A stretch of 64,000 nucleotides of DNA. Source: Bacteroidota bacterium (GTDB taxonomy: Bacteria; Bacteroidota; Bacteroidia; Flavobacteriales; Schleiferiaceae). This document shows, piece by piece, positions 4,180 to 45,684 of the stretch. A program made the translations under genes and the position numbers. Location of the stretch: assembly GCA_003045865.1 (NCBI GenBank), contig PZPB01000001.1:1-64000 (forward strand). Direction: 5' to 3'. The first letter of the stretch is position 1. Each line of letters begins with the position of its first letter. The notes beneath the pieces were generated by a model. That model searched no databases, was not told the DNA's origin, and saw only the letters and a list, made by a program, of their open reading frames with translations.

Positions 4180-7100
4180 CTAATTTCTGTTTTTCAAAAA
4201 GGCTTCAATTTCGCGGCGACTGTAATTTTCAAGGTAGGGCCCGCGATATAGAGGGGGGTGTAATTCTTCCGTGGTGCTAATGGCTAGCTCATCTATACTA
4301 ATGTCTAAATGTAATTTATAGTGGTGGGCTTGATACGGCACAATAAGGTCGAGCACATGCGAACCATTTAGTTCTTTTAAGGCAATGGGCTGTTCGTTAT
4401 AGTCATATTTAACTAATTTCCAGTGATAGGTATAGCGGTCTTGATCGCTTAAGGCTCGCCATTTTCCATTCGTTTTTAGTAAGGCTTGATAGCGGTGGTG
4501 CATACCTCTAATAACTGGCTTGGCTACAGGTATAATACGAATTTGATCCAATGCTAAATTGTTACTTTCAGTAAGCATTAAAAAGGATTGTTTCTTTTCG
4601 CCGTCAAGGGTTTTTAAACCGTTAAAAGACACTTTAGTGCTAAAAATTTCATCCTGCCATGCTTCTAATAAGAAACCAATTTTGTGCTTTTTAAAATAGG
4701 GAGCATATTGAGCAGGACAGCTGTTTATAAACACATCCGCTCTCAATTTTATAAGGTCATCTTCATCTATTTGCTTAGGCAGTTTTTGATTCGGGTTGAT
4801 ATTAATTCCCACCGCATCGATAAAAGGCACCTGTTTTAAAATGTGTTTTATGTTTTCTTCGCAAAAGGGTCCTGAATCTATTTCAATGGAAATACTTCGA
4901 CTTGGGTCGAGTTTTTTAATTTCAAAGGAAATGTCAGTGAGCCAACGGAGGTAAGCTTTGCGTTCAAAGTTAAGTTCTGGCTGATTGTGATAAAAACCAA
5001 GCTTGTTCCAACTTGCGCCCCCGAGATGCCAAGCGATGATGCTCTTTTCTCCCATTTTGTCGCTTACGCTATTTAGAATAAGCTCTTTAAGTGCGGCTAA
5101 TTCTTTGAGGTCCTTTTCGAAGCTTTTTATGTGGGCCGTCCAGAAACTATACAGAATCTGATGTTCTGATTGCTCTGCTTGATTTAAGATGTTGAAATCG
5201 TAGAAGCCGGGCCCGGTGCGCTTAATAGTTTTCAGTCCTAATTGGTTCATTTCCCTAAAGTCGTTTTCCAAGGTTTCTCTGAAAAGGGGATTACGGGTAG
5301 CTTGCCAGTCGGAGCCCTTGTAATAGTTTACGCCAGCTAGCATTGGATAATCAAGAGGAGTGGAGGCATCTAACTCGTTTTGGGAAATTTGTGGCGTAGG
5401 GTATTCAGCAAACTTTCTTTTTTCCTGCAAGGGCTTTGGGAAGGGAAGCGTAGCACTTAAACAGCTAAAGTCTTTCACGATTAGTCCGCCAATTTGAGCA
5501 AAAGAATCCGAAAGGCTTTTGTAGTTGTTATATAATTCTTTATGATTTTCAAAGTGGCTATTGAGTTCAAGAATTACTGGCAATTCTAAACTATAGGCTT
5601 CGCTTACATATAATTTTTGAAAATCTTTATAAAGAGGACTTTCACCGGTAAGAGATTCGCTTAGGTCGGTTTTTAGCCAATCCACATAGGCTAAGCCTGG
5701 AAAAAAACGATCGATATTTTTTGGATCGCTAGCATGGTAAACGGAAATAATATTATTAACGCCCGACTTCCGGAAAAATTCATAGATGTAGCGCCAGGCC
5801 TGTCGATACTTTTTACCCAGGGCAATACGTTCAATGTCGGCAAGTCCAGCACAGAGTGAATCGAATGGTGGTAGGAAGGAAATTAATACCGGTTTTTCGT
5901 CACGCATTATTTCCTCCGCAAATTGCGATATTCGATTATTTTGCGACCCCAGAATAAGTTGATCGCAAAGCATCATTAAGTCGGCACTACTATTTAATTC
6001 AGATTGCTTAAAACTAATCAATGGATATTGGTTCTTAGCCCAAACCGCATTTAGGCCTTTCTGGAAATCGCTGATAGGTGCATTCCAGTAAAAATTGATT
6101 TTCTGAATATTACAGCTGCTAGTTTGGTTCGTTAGCCCCACTTGGTAAGTTGCCCCTAATAAGTTATTTACGGGGTAAACAGGCTTTTGGCCGACAGGTA
6201 TATTTTCTATTTCTTTCAGTGAGGATTGCTGATAAAGAAGAACAATTATCGCAACTAAAAGCGGGGCAGCGGTATAACGTAAAACCACATAGCTGCGCCG
6301 GCGGAGACGCCAAAAACGGTCTTTTAAGAAGCGGGTGACATCATCTATTTTTTTGGCAAAAGCATGCTTTTCTAGATAACGACGATAGCGGTTTTGCATG
6401 CTTATCATAACCATAAAGGCCATGAAAAAAACATTCATTAAAGCAAAGCCTGCCATTATTAAATTATAGGGATTAAAGTCGCGTAATAGTCCGTAAATAA
6501 TGGCTAAAATTGAAACTGCTGCCACCACAAGGTTGGGAATATTTAGGGCCCAGATATTTTCTTCCTTCCCATCTTTGGGGGTGGGGTTATAGGGAACTTT
6601 ACGCCTTAAGATGGTGAAAATAAACCCTAGGGAGTGAATCCACCAAGTACCAATCATCATGAGACCGCCTTGTAGATGAAAACCTCTTTCGTCTTCTTCC
6701 ATTACCCATTTTTGAACATAGTGGCGGATTATTAAAGTACTAGCGGTAAAAGGAACGCCCAAAAGAACAAAGTTCCATAAACTCATGGTCATTGGCTTTG
6801 CGCCAAGAATGAGAGACAGAATGGGAATTAAAAAGTTAATGAGGTAAATGAAACCGGTAAAATAGTTCCAAGGGAGAATACCATAGTGAATTTTCTGACG
6901 AAGATTTAATTTGCTAAAGATTTCTACATAAGTGGTAACCAATAATTCAAAAACTCCGCGCGACCATTTTAGTTGCTGCTGATAATAAGCAGAAAGGGTA
7001 TTGGGCACTAAGCCGCGCGTTAGCATACGCGGAACATAGCTAGATTTCCAGCCTTTACCATGCAGTTTCATGCTGGTGTTCATGTCTTCTGCTAAACCGG

Positions 7101-7875
7101 GCGCATGTCCGCCAATGCTATCTAAAGCCGCTCTTCTAAAAGTACAATTTGCACCAATGGCTTGGGCGGTACCATAGCTATTCATGCTCATCATAATTGG
7201 CCCATAAAACTGAAAAGTTTGTTGAGCCGAGCCTTTGGCAATTATATTTTCATAGATGTTGTAATAACCCTGCACCACCTGCACAAAACCAGTTTCAGGA
7301 TTATTAAAATGGGGTAATACCCAATCTAAAAAATCCCGCGCTGGAATATGATCGGGGTCGAGAATTAGGCAGATTTCCCCCCTGGCTTGTTGCAAGGCAT
7401 TATTGATATTACCAGCTTTAGCATTCACTTTTATTTCTCGGGTAACATGCTTAACCCCTAATCTTTTGCACTGCTCAATTAAATAAGGGCTGTTTCCTTC
7501 ATCGCAGAGATAAGTAGTATGGGGATAAGTAATTTTTTGGATGGCTTCCAGTGTTTCCACCAGCATATCGTAGGGTTCACCAGGCACAAAAGTGGTGAGG
7601 ATGTCAACGGTATATTGTTTTTCTAAGATGGGGGTTTCTGGAACACGGATATCCCAGTAGTGATACCATTCATAGCTTATGCGAAGAACAATAAAAAGTA
7701 AGGCAAAAATAAGGGGGTAATAAAGTGGTTTAAAGCCAATGTACTCTTCTTGCAGAATGCCATAGGTAAAAAGCCCTGCGCTAATTACGCCGATGAGAAT
7801 CATAGTTCTCAATAGCCACCTTTGCTTAAAGGTAGGGGCGATTACAGGACTAGGTCTTCTATTCTGGTACCACAT
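4180..7875 (-). CDS. GT2 processive glycosyltransferase fused to two inactive GH-like domains
   Basis: This 1231-residue inner-membrane protein starts with two TM helices (about 20-41 and 51-70), then a cellulose-synthase-like GT2 domain (85-330). Catalytic motifs are CDEGN (D125), DPD (173-175), AED (262-264) and QQLKW (300-304, a variant of QxxRW). Six further TM segments follow up to about 548. The rest is periplasmic by prediction. Residues 575-800 resemble a GH26 barrel, but the acid/base position reads SFLPPF without Glu. Residues 850-1105 resemble a GH2/GH5 barrel, where LGGASWN replaces the usual Asn-Glu. Both hydrolase domains therefore look catalytically dead and may bind the growing polymer. 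The frame-corrected GH lipoprotein gene upstream overlaps it by 17 bases. The product is probably an exported beta-linked polysaccharide of unknown kind. No PilZ domain was seen. Confidence 0.85.
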   Translation of the reverse strand: MWYQNRRPSPVIAPTFKQRWLLRTMILIGVISAGLFTYGILQEEYIGFKPLYYPLIFALLFIVLRISYEWYHYWDIRVPETPILEKQYTVDILTTFVPGEPYDMLVETLEAIQKITYPHTTYLCDEGNSPYLIEQCKRLGVKHVTREIKVNAKAGNINNALQQARGEICLILDPDHIPARDFLDWVLPHFNNPETGFVQVVQGYYNIYENIIAKGSAQQTFQFYGPIMMSMNSYGTAQAIGANCTFRRAALDSIGGHAPGLAEDMNTSMKLHGKGWKSSYVPRMLTRGLVPNTLSAYYQQQLKWSRGVFELLVTTYVEIFSKLNLRQKIHYGILPWNYFTGFIYLINFLIPILSLILGAKPMTMSLWNFVLLGVPFTASTLIIRHYVQKWVMEEDERGFHLQGGLMMIGTWWIHSLGFIFTILRRKVPYNPTPKDGKEENIWALNIPNLVVAAVSILAIIYGLLRDFNPYNLIMAGFALMNVFFMAFMVMISMQNRYRRYLEKHAFAKKIDDVTRFLKDRFWRLRRRSYVVLRYTAAPLLVAIIVLLYQQSSLKEIENIPVGQKPVYPVNNLLGATYQVGLTNQTSSCNIQKINFYWNAPISDFQKGLNAVWAKNQYPLISFKQSELNSSADLMMLCDQLILGSQNNRISQFAEEIMRDEKPVLISFLPPFDSLCAGLADIERIALGKKYRQAWRYIYEFFRKSGVNNIISVYHASDPKNIDRFFPGLAYVDWLKTDLSESLTGESPLYKDFQKLYVSEAYSLELPVILELNSHFENHKELYNNYKSLSDSFAQIGGLIVKDFSCLSATLPFPKPLQEKRKFAEYPTPQISQNELDASTPLDYPMLAGVNYYKGSDWQATRNPLFRETLENDFREMNQLGLKTIKRTGPGFYDFNILNQAEQSEHQILYSFWTAHIKSFEKDLKELAALKELILNSVSDKMGEKSIIAWHLGGASWNKLGFYHNQPELNFERKAYLRWLTDISFEIKKLDPSRSISIEIDSGPFCEENIKHILKQVPFIDAVGININPNQKLPKQIDEDDLIKLRADVFINSCPAQYAPYFKKHKIGFLLEAWQDEIFSTKVSFNGLKTLDGEKKQSFLMLTESNNLALDQIRIIPVAKPVIRGMHHRYQALLKTNGKWRALSDQDRYTYHWKLVKYDYNEQPIALKELNGSHVLDLIVPYQAHHYKLHLDISIDELAISTTEELHPPLYRGPYLENYSRREIEAFLKNRN

Positions 7876-8024
7876 AGAAAGGAAGGTTTACACTGCTAAA
7901 GTTTCCGTGGCCGTCGGTAATTTTTACAAAGAGGCGGTAAGGACCAGGTTTTGAAGGGCTGTTAAAACGTATTTTCCCTTCTTTGGTGATAGGAGAAAAT
8001 ACCGTGTTTTCAAGCGCAGCGGAG
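7859..8024 (-). pseudogene. Out-of-frame C-terminal part of the GH lipoprotein (frameshift)
   Basis: After the point where the hydrolase frame runs into an early stop, the neighbouring frame reads about 54 sensible residues, including TVFSPITKEGKIRF, GPYRLFVKITDGHG and NLPFYVVPE, and ends at a TAG at 7859-7861. This completes the immunoglobulin-like domain that begins in the main frame. The total length from 9155 to 7859 is one base more than a multiple of three, so a single extra base near 8021-8026 explains the break. The restored end overlaps the synthase start (7875) by 17 bases. It could be a sequencing error, a recent mutation, or recoding. Confidence 0.8.
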
Positions 8025-9155
8025 GTCTCCTTTAACGAAAAACCAGTCTTCGGTGCGGATGTTCCAATGGTAATTTAAACTGTCCTTTTCAGGGTCGCTG
8101 GCAATTACCTTGGCGAAGTGAGCAGTGGAGGGTTCTAATAGTAACTCATTGGCATTAAAAATCGAGTCGATACTTAATAAACCAACCTTTGGGGGACGAT
8201 TGGTTTTTAACTCTTTACCAAAGCTTTCAGCAAGCTTAAAGTACATCTCGTTTTTTTCCCCTTCTTGTGAAAACACATTAAACCAAGTATGGGTTTGTTC
8301 TTGTCGCCAACCCCAAAAGAAGGCGAGTGAACCTAAAAAAGCGGGATTGTCTTTTGGTAAAATGCTATCGTAAATGGCAGCGAGTCGCTCGGCTTTTTGA
8401 CTGCTATTAATTTCGCCAGGTGTTCCCCAAACGGTCCCATCAGATTCCCAAGGGCCGTTTTCGCCAAACTCTCCAATTACAAAGGGTTTGTTAAAAAGCC
8501 AAGTCCACCTATCGCGATCTGCTTCTAGTTGGTTTAAACGCCCAAAGGTATTGACATAAACCAAGTCTATATTGCGAATTTTTAATCCAAAATTTAAGAT
8601 AGCTTTATTGCCATAATTAGCGAAAGCTGTACCTACTGGATGATTAGGATCTCCACTTTTAAGAGAGTCTAAAATTTGATTGTAGCCTCTAGCAAATCCC
8701 CAATCTTTAATATTGTAGTAAATTAATTCATTGCCTAGGCACCAACTAAGCAAGGCAGGGTGATTGCTGTATTTTTTAGCAAAAGCCTTTAATTTTTGGG
8801 ATGTCTCAGCCACTACACTATCATTGGGGTAGAACCACTTAGAGTTACTTTTTGGAAGCCAAATTCCGGCTATAACGGCGATATTTAAGCTTTGCGCTTC
8901 GTCTAAAATAGCCCCCAAATTCGTAGTGTCATAAGTGCGGATGCAATTGCCGCCAATATCCGCAAGCTCTTTTAATCTTACTTCTCCAGAAACTCCTTTA
9001 ATAATAAAAGGCTCGCAATTGCGGATAAGCTGAAATTTATCGCCCGTTTTTTCTATATAAACGGTTCCTTTACTTTGTTCAGAAGGTGAGCAGGCAGGCC
9101 ATAAAAAACTGCTAAGCAGGACCAAAAATAGATTTCGAGCAAGTTTTTTTGTCAA
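8010..9155 (-). CDS. Lipoprotein glycoside hydrolase (GH2/GH5-like TIM barrel), frameshifted 3' end
   Basis: As read, 381 residues: a leader ending in LWPAC (Cys22), a TIM-barrel hydrolase domain (about 50-320), and the start of an Ig-like C-terminal domain that is cut short by a frameshift. Likely catalytic residues are E143 in CLGNELIYY (acid/base) and E229 in FVIGEFGENG (nucleophile), as in clan GH-A retaining enzymes. Correcting one base gives 431 residues ending at 7859 inside the start of the synthase gene. The enzyme probably trims or releases the polymer made by that synthase. The start is a TTG at 9153-9155; no better in-frame ATG exists upstream. The exact GH family is uncertain. 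Confidence 0.8.
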   Translation of the reverse strand: MTKKLARNLFLVLLSSFLWPACSPSEQSKGTVYIEKTGDKFQLIRNCEPFIIKGVSGEVRLKELADIGGNCIRTYDTTNLGAILDEAQSLNIAVIAGIWLPKSNSKWFYPNDSVVAETSQKLKAFAKKYSNHPALLSWCLGNELIYYNIKDWGFARGYNQILDSLKSGDPNHPVGTAFANYGNKAILNFGLKIRNIDLVYVNTFGRLNQLEADRDRWTWLFNKPFVIGEFGENGPWESDGTVWGTPGEINSSQKAERLAAIYDSILPKDNPAFLGSLAFFWGWRQEQTHTWFNVFSQEGEKNEMYFKLAESFGKELKTNRPPKVGLLSIDSIFNANELLLEPSTAHFAKVIASDPEKDSLNYHWNIRTEDWFFVKGDLRCA

Positions 9156-9219: not shown

Positions 9220-11040
9220 TTATTGCGAGTTACAGCGTTTAATAAAAGCCAATTGATCACCTGAATTAAAATCTGGGATGTTTCTATCAATAACTTTAAG
9301 GCCCCCATTTTGATTAATTAAAAAGAGCGGTATTAGTCTACCGTCCATTTCTTTCACTAAATTTTTGTAGTCCTGTTGGCTTTCGCAAGATGCCTCTTTC
9401 ACATGATCGGCTTGCCTAATCGATTGCGCCAGGTTTAAGTAATCAACTGTGGCGGCAAAAAGTACATTTATCGGCAAACGAATATCGCCAGCTTCTAATT
9501 CTTTTTTGCTGCTAAGGCGGAATACGTGGTTCTCACCAAATTCATCTTTGTAAAAATTACAAGAGAGGTTATTAATATCAGCACTAGAAGTGAGGGCCAT
9601 TAGCTTTCCAATATTGGTAAGGTCCAAATCTTCCAATACGCTATCACTGAGAATGCTACCCTCATAAACCTCAAAACCTAATTTTTGCGCTTCTTTTAAA
9701 TTGTTTTTAGAAGTATCCGCTAACAGTACTTCTATGCCTTTATTTTTAAGATACGTTCCTAAAAAGCGTGCGTTTTCATTGGCCCCAGCAATTAAAAAAC
9801 CTTGGGGTTCTTCGCGTTCAACCTTTAGTAAGCGTGCGATATATTTGGAACTAGCCCCTTGAATTACAACCGTTCCCACAATCATCATAAAAGTGAGAGG
9901 CAGTATGAGTTCTGCTTGCTCATGGTTAATGCTAGCGTCGGTATTATTGCTCAGCTGTAAAGCAAATAAAGAAGCCACTGCAGCCGCTACAATTCCTTTG
10001 GGCCCTACCCACGACATAAATAAAATCTCGCGCCAATTGAAATCAGAACGAATAGTGCTTATCCAAACAATTAAGGGACGAAGGCCAAAGGTTACTACCG
10101 CAAAAAGTATCAGTGAAGCCTGACCAAGTTTTTCAATTTGACTGATATCAATTCTACTGGAAAGTAGGATAAATAGCACCGAAATAAGAATGATGCTCAC
10201 GTCTTCCTTAAAAGATAAAATTTTCTTGAGATTTTGCACCCTCACATTGGCTAGAATAATCCCCATAAAAGTGGTCGACATCAGGCCGGCTTCGTGGGCA
10301 ATAAACTCGGCAAAGGTAAAGGCCATAATAACCATTCCTAAGGCCATAACATTGCGTAAATAGGCGGGTAAACGATTTTTCTCTAGCAACCAACGCAGGA
10401 AAAAAGCAGCCAAGGCCCCTACAAACATACCGGACGAAACGGTAATGAAAAATTCTTTAAAAACCTCTACGGTATTCGAATTCCCGAGGTCGCTGGTTTG
10501 AATAAATTCATAAACCAAAACAGCAATTAATGCTCCCAAGGGGTCAATTAAAATCCCCTCCCATTTCAGCACACTATTAATGCGCATGTTGGGCCTAACA
10601 TTTCGTAAAATGGGAATAACAACGGTAGGCCCGGATACGATAATTAAAGCACCAAAAAGGAAGGCCAACCGGTAGTCGAGCCCCAGCAGATAATGGGCGG
10701 CAAAACCCCCACCGAAAAGGGTTATTATGGGTCCAACAATTAGGAGGTTTCGCACCACACGGGCTTGATCGCGAATTTCCCGCAGCTTCAGGGTTAATCC
10801 ACCTTCGAAAAGAATTACCCCTACCGAAATCGAAACAAAAGCAAAAAGTAGGTCGCCCGAAAAAATGTCGTCACCGTCTAATATTTTTTCGCCATCAGGA
10901 CTAAAAAGAGTAGAGGCTGGACCCAGGGCTAAGCCAATAATAATTAAAGGAAGAATGGCCGGAATTTTAATTTTCCACGCCAACCATTGTGCGAAAACGC
11001 TTAAAATTAAAATACTCGCTAATTCGGCCATTCCCTCCAT
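9220..11040 (-). CDS. Cation:proton antiporter (CPA family) with RCK/TrkA-N domain
   Basis: The 606-residue protein has about 12 TM segments (1-400) and a cytoplasmic RCK/TrkA-N-like domain (about 415-525) with a nucleotide-binding start, FLIAGANENA, and an acidic residue after the second strand (LLADTSK). The conserved membrane signatures are ILFEGGLTLKL, SGPTVVIPIL and EGILIDPLGA, typical of NhaP-like Na+ or K+/H+ antiporters. It probably expels Na+ or K+ in exchange for protons, gated by nucleotide or redox state. Two nearby ATG starts exist (11040 and 11031). It is separated from the next minus-strand gene by 28 bases and may share its transcript. Confidence 0.88.
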   Translation of the reverse strand: MEGMAELASILILSVFAQWLAWKIKIPAILPLIIIGLALGPASTLFSPDGEKILDGDDIFSGDLLFAFVSISVGVILFEGGLTLKLREIRDQARVVRNLLIVGPIITLFGGGFAAHYLLGLDYRLAFLFGALIIVSGPTVVIPILRNVRPNMRINSVLKWEGILIDPLGALIAVLVYEFIQTSDLGNSNTVEVFKEFFITVSSGMFVGALAAFFLRWLLEKNRLPAYLRNVMALGMVIMAFTFAEFIAHEAGLMSTTFMGIILANVRVQNLKKILSFKEDVSIILISVLFILLSSRIDISQIEKLGQASLILFAVVTFGLRPLIVWISTIRSDFNWREILFMSWVGPKGIVAAAVASLFALQLSNNTDASINHEQAELILPLTFMMIVGTVVIQGASSKYIARLLKVEREEPQGFLIAGANENARFLGTYLKNKGIEVLLADTSKNNLKEAQKLGFEVYEGSILSDSVLEDLDLTNIGKLMALTSSADINNLSCNFYKDEFGENHVFRLSSKKELEAGDIRLPINVLFAATVDYLNLAQSIRQADHVKEASCESQQDYKNLVKEMDGRLIPLFLINQNGGLKVIDRNIPDFNSGDQLAFIKRCNSQ

Positions 11041-43289: not shown

Positions 43290-43374
43290 GGATTTCGTAA
43301 CTATGGTAAAATCTATTCCCGCCTATCATTTTTGGCTAATTTTAGCGTTCACATACGCAAGAAGCTCTGTTACG

Positions 43375-45684
43375 ATGAATAAATGCTATTGGTTAATTTT
43401 ATTTTTTATCCCTTTCCTGTCTAAATCGCAGATATCGAATAACTTAGGGGTGTGGGTTGACCACTTGCCCTATGCGAACTCGGTTGACATTGTAGAGGAA
43501 AAAGGAATAACCTATGTGGCTTCCGAGCAAGGATTATACACTTATAACCTTAGCGATCGAGCGATTAATCGGGTTTCGAAGGTGAATGGATTAAGCGATG
43601 TGGGCTTAACTTGTATCGCTTACAGCGAGAGAACCGATGAACTTTTAATCGGTTATGAAAATGGAAACTTGGATATTTACCGCGATGGTGAGGTAACAAC
43701 TTTTCCCGATTTACGGTTAAGTAGCAATTACAGTGGATTAAAACGTATTAACCATATCCACATTTTGGATAGCGTTGCTTTTATCGCCACCAATTTTGGT
43801 ATTCTGGCTTATGAAATTCCCTCGGGCTTAGTACGTGAAACTTATATTATAGGCCCTAATGGTACCACTTTAGGGGTTAATCAGATTACCGATGATGGCG
43901 ATACGCTTTATGCGGCAACACCCGAAGGATTGTACAAAGCTCCCCTAAATTCTGCAAAATTTTTCTTTGCCAATTGGAAGAAAGACCCTCAAATGGGACG
44001 CTCGGTAAATCTTATCTGTTATTTCGACAACCGCCTATTTGTGAATCGCAATATCGAACCCAATAGGGATTCTATTTATTATCGTGAAAACGGACAGTGG
44101 CTGCATTTCGATGCCAATGAAATTGCCGATAACCGCGCCCTACGTGAGTCGAAAGGCACATTGGTTGTTGTAAATAATTTTAGTGCTCGTGCCTATGATG
44201 CGAATTTCCAATTTGTAAAAAACTGGAACTCAATTACCGTGGGCGATAGTGCTTTTAGTCCCGTTGCAGCGGTGATGGGAACCAATCCCGAAAATTTTTG
44301 GATTGCGGATGCGGCATCGGGAATATATCAAGTCTTTCAAATTTTCCCTTTTCCCTTAGTACCGAATAGTCCGCGTACCAAAAACGTAATGCGTATGCAG
44401 CAAAGTGATTTTGGGCTTTTGGTTTGTCCGGGTGGGATTGATGCGGTTGGAACGCCGCAGTTTAATTCAGAAGGTTTCTTTCGACTACTTGATTTACAGT
44501 GGACTAATTATCCGTCAGGTCAATTTGAGGGCTATAAGGATATCGTGGAAATAATGCCGCATCCTACCGATGCCAATATTTATTACGCTTCTACCTACGG
44601 AACGGGAATTTTGGAACTCTTCATTTCAAGGGAGGAACTTCGCGTTGAGCGCTTAATTAACGAGGCCAGCACCAATGGTGTTTTACCTTCTATTCAAGGC
44701 CTGGGTAATCATCGTGTGGCCGATATGGACATGGATCAAAATGGTAATATTTGGTTCAGTAATTCTTTAACCGAAAAGCCTTTAGGGGTAATTCGTCCCG
44801 ATGGAAAGATCGAAAGCTATAGTTTGGGCGCCTCGGGTTCGGGTGCCAACGTATTAAAAGTCATGGCCACAACCTCTAATCAGGTTTGGTTGCAGGTACG
44901 TAATGGCGGTTTAATCGTGGTGCGCATCGAAGACGGTGTTCCGGTTGAAAACCGCAGTTTAGGCTCTTCGGAAGGCTCTGGTAACCTACCCTCGGAGTCG
45001 GTTCTTTCCTTTGCGGAAGATTTGGATGGTGAAATTTGGATTGGAACTAACGAGGGCTTGGCGGTGCTCTTTAGTCCTGAAAATATTTTTGAAGCGAATC
45101 GTAGTTATGATGCCTCCATCATTGTTATAGATGAAGATGGCGATGGCAATGGCGAAAGAGTTTTAGGAACGGAGGCCATTAATGATATTGAAATTGATGG
45201 CTCTAATAAAAAGTGGTTTGGAACGGTAAATAGTGGCGTTTTCTATACCAATGAAAACGGTCGAGTTCAACTTTTACGTTTCTCCAAAGAGAACAGCCCC
45301 TTAGCAAGTAATACTATTTTAGATATTGAAATTGATGATAAAACGGGCATGGTGTACTTTGGTTCCGATCAAGGAATTGTGTCTTACCAAGGGCAGGCCA
45401 CTGCCGGTGAAGAGCGCATGACTGATGTTTTTGCTTATCCTAATCCGGTGGAGCCTGGTTATACAGGTCCTATTTTAATTCGGGGTTTGGTAACCAATGC
45501 TCAGGTGAAAATCACCGATTTGGAAGGCAATATTGTTTTTGAAACGGTGGCCGAAGGTGGGCAAGCCATTTGGAGTGGCAATCGTTTTGACGGCGAGCGC
45601 GTGGCTTCGGGGATTTACTTGGCTTTTATTAGTGACGATTTAGGGGCCAATACGGAAGTGGCTAAAATCATGATTATCAATTAA
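43375..45684 (+). CDS. porZ: PorZ-like beta-propeller protein of type IX secretion
   Basis: The 769-residue exported protein has a signal peptide (1-18, ending SKSQ), two propeller regions of two-component-regulator type (blades such as VASEQGLYTYN and IWIGTNEGLAVLFSP), and a C-terminal sorting-type domain with YPNPVEPGY and NRFDGERVASGIYLAF. PorZ proteins sit on the cell surface and help the sortase complex attach cargo. The ATG at 43375 is preferred, as the earlier in-frame ATG at 43303 would put 24 extra residues before the signal peptide. The stop overlaps the recO start by 1 base. Confidence 0.9.
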   Translation: MNKCYWLILFFIPFLSKSQISNNLGVWVDHLPYANSVDIVEEKGITYVASEQGLYTYNLSDRAINRVSKVNGLSDVGLTCIAYSERTDELLIGYENGNLDIYRDGEVTTFPDLRLSSNYSGLKRINHIHILDSVAFIATNFGILAYEIPSGLVRETYIIGPNGTTLGVNQITDDGDTLYAATPEGLYKAPLNSAKFFFANWKKDPQMGRSVNLICYFDNRLFVNRNIEPNRDSIYYRENGQWLHFDANEIADNRALRESKGTLVVVNNFSARAYDANFQFVKNWNSITVGDSAFSPVAAVMGTNPENFWIADAASGIYQVFQIFPFPLVPNSPRTKNVMRMQQSDFGLLVCPGGIDAVGTPQFNSEGFFRLLDLQWTNYPSGQFEGYKDIVEIMPHPTDANIYYASTYGTGILELFISREELRVERLINEASTNGVLPSIQGLGNHRVADMDMDQNGNIWFSNSLTEKPLGVIRPDGKIESYSLGASGSGANVLKVMATTSNQVWLQVRNGGLIVVRIEDGVPVENRSLGSSEGSGNLPSESVLSFAEDLDGEIWIGTNEGLAVLFSPENIFEANRSYDASIIVIDEDGDGNGERVLGTEAINDIEIDGSNKKWFGTVNSGVFYTNENGRVQLLRFSKENSPLASNTILDIEIDDKTGMVYFGSDQGIVSYQGQATAGEERMTDVFAYPNPVEPGYTGPILIRGLVTNAQVKITDLEGNIVFETVAEGGQAIWSGNRFDGERVASGIYLAFISDDLGANTEVAKIMIIN

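Follow-up and report, generated by a model that had tools for sequence, protein, structure and literature searches.

Organization of the Locus

The window, as we call the whole stretch of 64,000 nucleotides of Bacteroidota DNA analyzed here, carries a module of two genes on its reverse strand. A gene for a GH158-type lipoprotein overlaps the start of a gene for a synthase of 1231 residues, and the features of both are collected in Table 1. The synthase open reading frame has full-length orthologues with 36–48% identity, and dN/dS is far below 1 for all of its domains when two congeners are compared. These two observations rule out a chance open reading frame. The predicted model of the synthase (mean pLDDT of 79, pTM of 0.77) shows two barrels as well as a β-sandwich.

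Directly upstream of the module, at 9220–11040, lies a Na+/H+ exchanger with a TrkA_N domain, and an osmotic link is possible. A gene of similar size (608–611 residues) is situated upstream of the module in the congeners examined; the exchanger is not conserved outside the genus. Elsewhere, the window encodes a protein of 353 residues (136–1197) with family 3 solute-binding and ligand-gated ion channel domains, as in a prokaryotic glutamate-receptor-like channel, and a PorZ-type β-propeller protein of the type IX secretion system (43303–45684).

Table 1. Features of the synthase-hydrolase module in the window
Feature	Position	Strand	Basis or remark
GH158-type lipoprotein gene, TTG start	7859..9155	(-)	381-residue open reading frame stops at 8010; 3' end at 7859 by homology
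Overlap of GH158 frame and GT2 start codon, 17 nt	7859..7875	(-)	overlap or close abutment in most relatives
Synthase open reading frame, 1231 residues	4180-7875	(-)	GT2, two TIM barrels, and a β-sandwich
BcsA-like GT2 synthase part, residues about 20-540	6256..7818	(-)	sequence; Foldseek match to 4P00, E 1e-25
Last transmembrane helix, residues 529-547	6235..6291	(-)	hydropathy and positive-inside rule
GH26 lichenase-like barrel (barrel 1), residues 568-838	5362..6174	(-)	profile and fold; catalytic Glu pair lost in the window's genus
Pseudo-GH158 barrel (barrel 2), residues 848-1100	4576..5334	(-)	hhalign and fold; acid/base Glu absent in 19/19 sequences
Ig-like β-sandwich, residues about 1105-1205	4261..4563	(-)	matches the Ig domain of GH158

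The GT2 Synthase

The GT2 part contains the conserved motifs CDE (Asp-125), DPDH (residues 173–176), AED (Glu-Asp at 263–264), and QQLKW (residues 300–304), and also a PTPK motif (residues 431–434) that resembles a gating loop. The usual signature of processive GT2 synthases is QxxRW. In the GT2 homologues examined, QQLKW takes its place, and the D, DPD, and ED motifs are present. Bacterial cellulose synthases are the nearest solved relatives, both by sequence and by the fold of the predicted model (4P00). Among the NCBIfam families, CelA is far ahead as a match, yet it scores well below the curated cut-off, and the weak matches (CelA, PgaC, HpnI, and NodC) span several specificities. To our knowledge, the sugar specificity of the GT2 is not readable from sequence. 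A search of the 1231-residue protein for a PilZ domain gave no match. A search for plasmid relatives of the GT2 domain yielded only distant BcsA-type and rhizobial synthases of ~25% identity, mostly unannotated, and these were left out of the specificity argument.

The last transmembrane helix is preceded by 8 Lys or Arg residues within 20 positions. Because the helix comes after this strongly basic stretch, both C-terminal barrels are predicted to lie on the periplasmic side.

The Partner Lipoprotein

The partner matches GH158 with profile E-values of 6e-80 to 9ORO and 2e-75 to 6PAL. The latter is BuGH158, an endo-β-1,3-glucanase for which Glu-137, Asn-136, and Glu-220 are needed for activity (PMC7157763). 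The partner keeps Glu-143, situated in an NE motif, and Glu-229, which correspond to the catalytic residues of BuGH158, and both glutamates are kept in all 23 module homologues.

The partner gene contains a one-base frame disruption near a run of T at 8038–8042. Its C terminus resumes in another frame, ending ...PGPYRLFVKITDGHGNFSSVNLPFYVVPE as in the relatives, which are 424–464 residues long in the first set compared versus 381 in the window. The profile of these relatives covers all of 9ORO and 6PAL, and the window's own C terminus lies beyond the disruption. The disruption could be an assembly error of the draft genome or a real, recent mutation. A programmed frameshift was rejected, because the relatives have one continuous frame.

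The C-terminal Barrels

Pfam and NCBIfam give no glycoside hydrolase assignment for either barrel of the window protein. By itself, the protein shows only a faint GH26 match (phmmer E 2e-4). A profile built from eight orthologues finds CtLic26A at an E-value of 1e-29 over profile positions of about 588–833, and other GH26 entries are far behind at 1e-9 or weaker. The lichenase assignment of barrel 1 rests on the orthologues. A fold search with the window's own model also returned CtLic26A as the best match for this barrel (2CIP, E 1e-10), with a Foldseek TM score of 0.62 to the target. The GH26 family also includes mannanases and β-1,3-xylanases. The catalytic glutamate pair is not encountered in the window barrel, where FLPPFDS and VILELNS stand in place of the expected RFAHEFDN and IMIAEFGS. 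The acid/base Glu is missing and the nucleophile column holds no Glu; there is a Glu one residue off this column (VILEL).

By sequence and predicted fold, the most fitting description of barrel 2 is that of a degenerate and distant relative of the family to which the partner belongs, GH158. Its top fold matches are 6PAL (E 2e-12) and 9P26, both GH158, and hhalign of barrel 2 plus the sandwich against the partner gives a probability of 97 and an E-value of 6e-11 over nearly the whole length, including the Ig-like part. The likeness to GH158 is remote, at about 15% identity. GH17 is not the best match for either barrel; GH26 and GH158 are. The window barrel has LGGA at the acid/base position and a residue other than Glu in the nucleophile column. 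At the acid/base position, the relatives contain GGA, GGS, GNH, GND, SNL, SND, GNT, and others, so that the Glu is missing from every sequence compared. A Glu is left in the nucleophile column only at loci L105, L106, L108, and L047, which is a sign that barrel 2 descended from an active enzyme.

The original prediction, made from the window's letters, had named a full GT2 synthase with a GH26-like and a GH2/GH5-like barrel, both without an acid/base Glu, next to a lipoprotein hydrolase that keeps both of its glutamates. The conserved GT2 motifs and the partner's catalytic pair bear out the synthase and the hydrolase. The comparison of predicted barrel folds with known structures that it had called for yields matches to CtLic26A and to GH158 (6PAL and 9P26). 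Its GH26-like barrel is thereby upheld and refined to the lichenase type, with CtLic26A as the nearest structure. The second barrel does lack the acid/base Glu, but fold and hhalign make GH158-like the more precise description.

Catalytic State and Selection among Relatives

The C-terminal domain of PgaB was once thought inactive and was later shown to be a hydrolase (PMC5933820). In view of this precedent, a barrel is called dead here only in the sense that, judged by alignment, it is without the known catalytic residues of its family. Both glutamates of barrel 1 are gone in all five module-bearing genomes of the window's genus. The pair is intact in fused orthologues from Spongiivirga, Galbibacter, Pseudarcicella, and genomes G013, G135, G157, G158, G176, G225, and G390, and it is likewise intact in G008 and G248, where the gene is unfused. 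G244 retains its acid/base Glu and has a Glu in the nucleophile column, but the neighboring residues are altered. Most orthologues beyond the genus thus keep the catalytic pair, so that the death of barrel 1 is lineage-specific. The design with two dead barrels put forward in the original prediction thus holds in the window protein, but it does not extend to most orthologues of other families, in which barrel 1 is intact.

The pair is also broken in GT2-GH26 proteins that have no barrel 2, at loci L102–L103 in one family and L130–L132 in another. In a tree of the GT2 domain that took in L102–L103 and left out L130–L132, the window's genus forms a supported clade with the active G013 as its sister, and L102–L103 branch elsewhere. 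These positions indicate that catalytic loss in the GH26 barrel, with the barrel retained, probably occurred at least twice.

For the congeners G001 and G006, dN/dS is 0.012 for the GT2, 0.088 for the dead GH26 barrel, 0.025 for barrel 2, and 0.024 for the sandwich; the values rest on this one pair, in which the GH26 dS is high, other pairs being saturated and unused. The dead GH26 barrel is relaxed relative to the GT2 yet still constrained. In distant pairs, dead GH26 barrels share 35–42% identity where the GT2 shares 81–87%, and active GH26 barrels share 42–55% where the GT2 shares 60–67%.

Architectures and Distribution of the Module

The distribution was taken from profile searches of whole genomes. 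These replaced a scan with the window protein as the lone query, which found 6 loci, all in Bacteroidota, and reaches close relatives only. The module has a scattered occurrence in Flavobacteriales, Cytophagales, and other Bacteroidota, and it is present in 5 of the 7 genomes of the window's genus. Four architectures were distinguished. Architecture A consists of GT2, GH26, and barrel 2 in one protein with GH158 directly upstream. Architecture B (L099 and L100) has GT2 joined to barrel 2, a GH158 gene upstream, and, next to these, a separate gene with two GH26 copies, the second of them intact. In architecture C (L102, L103, and L130–L132), GT2 fused to a dead GH26 stands beside a GH158 gene on the opposite strand. 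The more distant architecture D comprises a TPR protein, a lone GT2, and a lone intact GH26 as neighbors (L098, 6114–10379, and L101, 3684–8195); no GH158 was seen in these two clusters. Among the relatives, domains are fused, split, or swapped while they remain neighbors, and some are missing.

The window's genome also encodes, on C31, a separate GH26-type protein of 603 residues (L115, 6526–8334) with an apparently intact Glu pair. Double-barrel relatives adjoin the synthase in L010, L099, and L100; judged by residues, their first copy is inactive, and their second copy is intact.

In a sample of 395 Bacteroidota genomes, GH158 occurs in 14 of 14 genomes with GT2-barrel fusions (architectures A–C) versus 32 of the 381 others (Fisher p 1.2e-14, a value made optimistic by related genomes). 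All of the nine best GH158 matches in the phylum sample are module genes, and no GT2 was found near the GH158 genes inspected outside modules. The GH158 gene adjoins the fusion in every complete locus. Adjacency and co-occurrence in the 14 sampled genomes agree with the earlier view of synthase and hydrolase as one unit. That view had named orthologues lacking the C-terminal domains as a finding that would refute it, and orthologues without one or both fused barrels do exist, so that it is not supported as a general design.

Proposed Function

We propose, with a probability of roughly 60%, that the module synthesizes and processes a β-glucan, that the product is β-1,3 or mixed-linkage, and that the barrels handle it at the periplasmic face. 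Computation shows what the domains are, the state of their catalytic residues, their adjacency and distribution, how they have been shuffled, and that they are under purifying selection, whereas the donor sugar, linkage, topology, binding role, and fate of the product are inferred. The GT2 would most likely polymerize UDP-glucose at the inner membrane and extrude the chain through a channel of its own in the fashion of BcsA, with the fused barrels at the periplasmic mouth of this channel. The pseudo-GH158 barrel may bind glucan or serve as a docking domain, without cutting. In the ancestor, the GH26 barrel would have been a working glucanase, cutting or re-linking the chain as it emerged, and it would have turned into a second non-cutting barrel in the window's genus. 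Cutting would be done by the separate GH158 protein and, in most lineages, by GH26. The product is probably a β-1,3 or a mixed β-1,3/1,4 glucan, because these are the two kinds on which GH158 and lichenase-type GH26 enzymes act. Barrel 2 is retained although its acid/base Glu is absent, and the dead barrel 1 is constrained, so that a binding or guiding role of the non-catalytic barrels is plausible.

The polymer need not leave the cell. It is possible, if tentative, that the products of the module are short or cyclic glucans of the periplasm (osmoregulated glucans) and that active barrels cleave the chain or transglycosylate it. Conservation at the module loci is limited to two genes, and no outer membrane exporter is linked to them; in the 90%-complete window genome, BcsB (PF03170), the BcsC C-terminal domain (PF05420), and MdoG were not found. 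A periplasmic glucan is thus as credible as a secreted one, and the absence of these Bcs parts agrees with the earlier statement that the system is unlike Bcs. A GT2 with a periplasmic GH17 has been proposed as a maker of cyclic β-1,3-glucan (PMC10237404), and the exchanger upstream in the window, with its like-sized counterpart in congeners, fits osmoregulation, although this neighbor is not kept outside the genus. Cyclization by GH26 is, however, impossible in the window's genus, where the fused barrel is dead, and Bacteroidota may use unlinked genes for export.

The original prediction saw a module dedicated to secretion, with the two dead barrels steering the polymer through the periplasm and the lipoprotein acting as the trimming enzyme. 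We now consider this unlikely. The window protein and its counterparts in the congeners do lack the standard acid/base Glu in both barrels, the dead barrel 1 is under purifying selection (dN/dS of about 0.09), and the barrel is kept despite catalytic loss in the GT2-GH26 proteins of other families (L102–L103 and L130–L132). However, most orthologues from beyond the genus have an intact barrel 1, and some modules have no fused barrels, so that the machine does not depend on dead guiding barrels; moreover, no export component is known.

The same selection data bear on whether the GH26 barrel of the window's genus is a decaying remnant without a function of its own. Its much faster evolution than the GT2 (35–42% versus 81–87% identity) would be expected of a remnant, but the constraint between G001 and G006, an unbroken reading frame across the genus, and a complete barrel predicted with good confidence make decay an improbable account. 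Still more doubtful is a polymer other than a glucan, such as a β-mannan or an amino-sugar polymer: the weak GT2 matches of several specificities and the mannanases within GH26 would allow it, but GH158 and lichenase-type GH26 both indicate β-1,3-containing glucans, and CelA is by far the top NCBIfam match, though well below cut-off. That the barrels are still catalytic through other acidic residues is very improbable, because the aligned catalytic positions vary freely (G/A, N/D, N/H, S/L, N/T), even though D306, D424, and D509 of barrel 2 are invariant or nearly so among relatives and a PgaB domain held inactive proved to be a hydrolase (PMC5933820).

The proposal of β-glucan synthesis and processing can be extended, as a speculation that we hold with little confidence, to a Bacteroidota-wide group of β-glucan synthases with glucanase-derived barrels at the channel exit, some of them turned to glucan handling after losing catalysis in separate lineages, in which a dedicated GH158 partner would set the chain length of a β-1,3 or mixed-linkage glucan at the surface or in the periplasm. 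Bacteroidota are known mainly as degraders of β-glucans. The module suggests that such degraders also make their own β-glucan, with compact machinery that resembles neither Bcs nor Pga, and GH158 and GH26 genes tallied as degradation capacity in this phylum may serve synthesis. Otherwise equivalent synthases whose active sites are intact, half lost, or wholly lost provide a natural series for studying non-cutting roles of the barrel.

Relation to Known Systems

GT2-GH26 modular proteins may already be listed in CAZy. The literature searched held no description of a GT2 with GH26 or GH158 or of such fusions, although one part of this negative result is weak evidence. The Bcs and Pga systems (PMC5933820) share with the window module an inner membrane GT2 and a periplasmic hydrolase, BcsZ or PgaB, in one operon. 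In contrast to them, the window's genome yielded neither BcsB nor a BcsC C-terminal domain, the hydrolase of the module is of the GH158 type, and hydrolase-like barrels are fused to its synthase.

The individual parts have known counterparts. Barrel 1 has the same fold as CtLic26A (2BV9 and 2VI0), and the catalytic pair is common to CtLic26A and most orthologues outside the genus, but barrel 1 is joined to a GT2 and, in the window protein, is inactive by residues. The partner belongs by profile to the same family as BuGH158 (6PAL) and GH158(Pro) (9ORO) and has both catalytic glutamates. BuGH158 is part of a β-glucan uptake locus, whereas the window GH158 is paired with a synthase.

BgsA of Sinorhizobium and RiGT2 of Romboutsia (PMC10374906) have a BcsA-like GT2 in common with the window module and a predicted β-1,3/1,4-glucan product. 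RiGT2, like the window module, has no linked BcsB, and BgsA has no PilZ domain, just as none was detected in the window synthase. The window module differs from both in having QxxKW rather than QxxRW, fused barrels, and a GH158 partner. The nearest precedent is the BcsA-like "Orphan"/NdvB GH17-GT2 protein of pseudomonads, a proposed cyclic β-1,3-glucan synthase (PMC10237404), which likewise combines a BcsA-like GT2 and a predicted periplasmic TIM-barrel hydrolase in a single polypeptide. The pseudomonad protein has one active, N-terminal GH17 domain, whereas the window module has C-terminal GH26 and pseudo-GH158 barrels that are often inactive, and it adds a separate GH158 partner with an intact active site.
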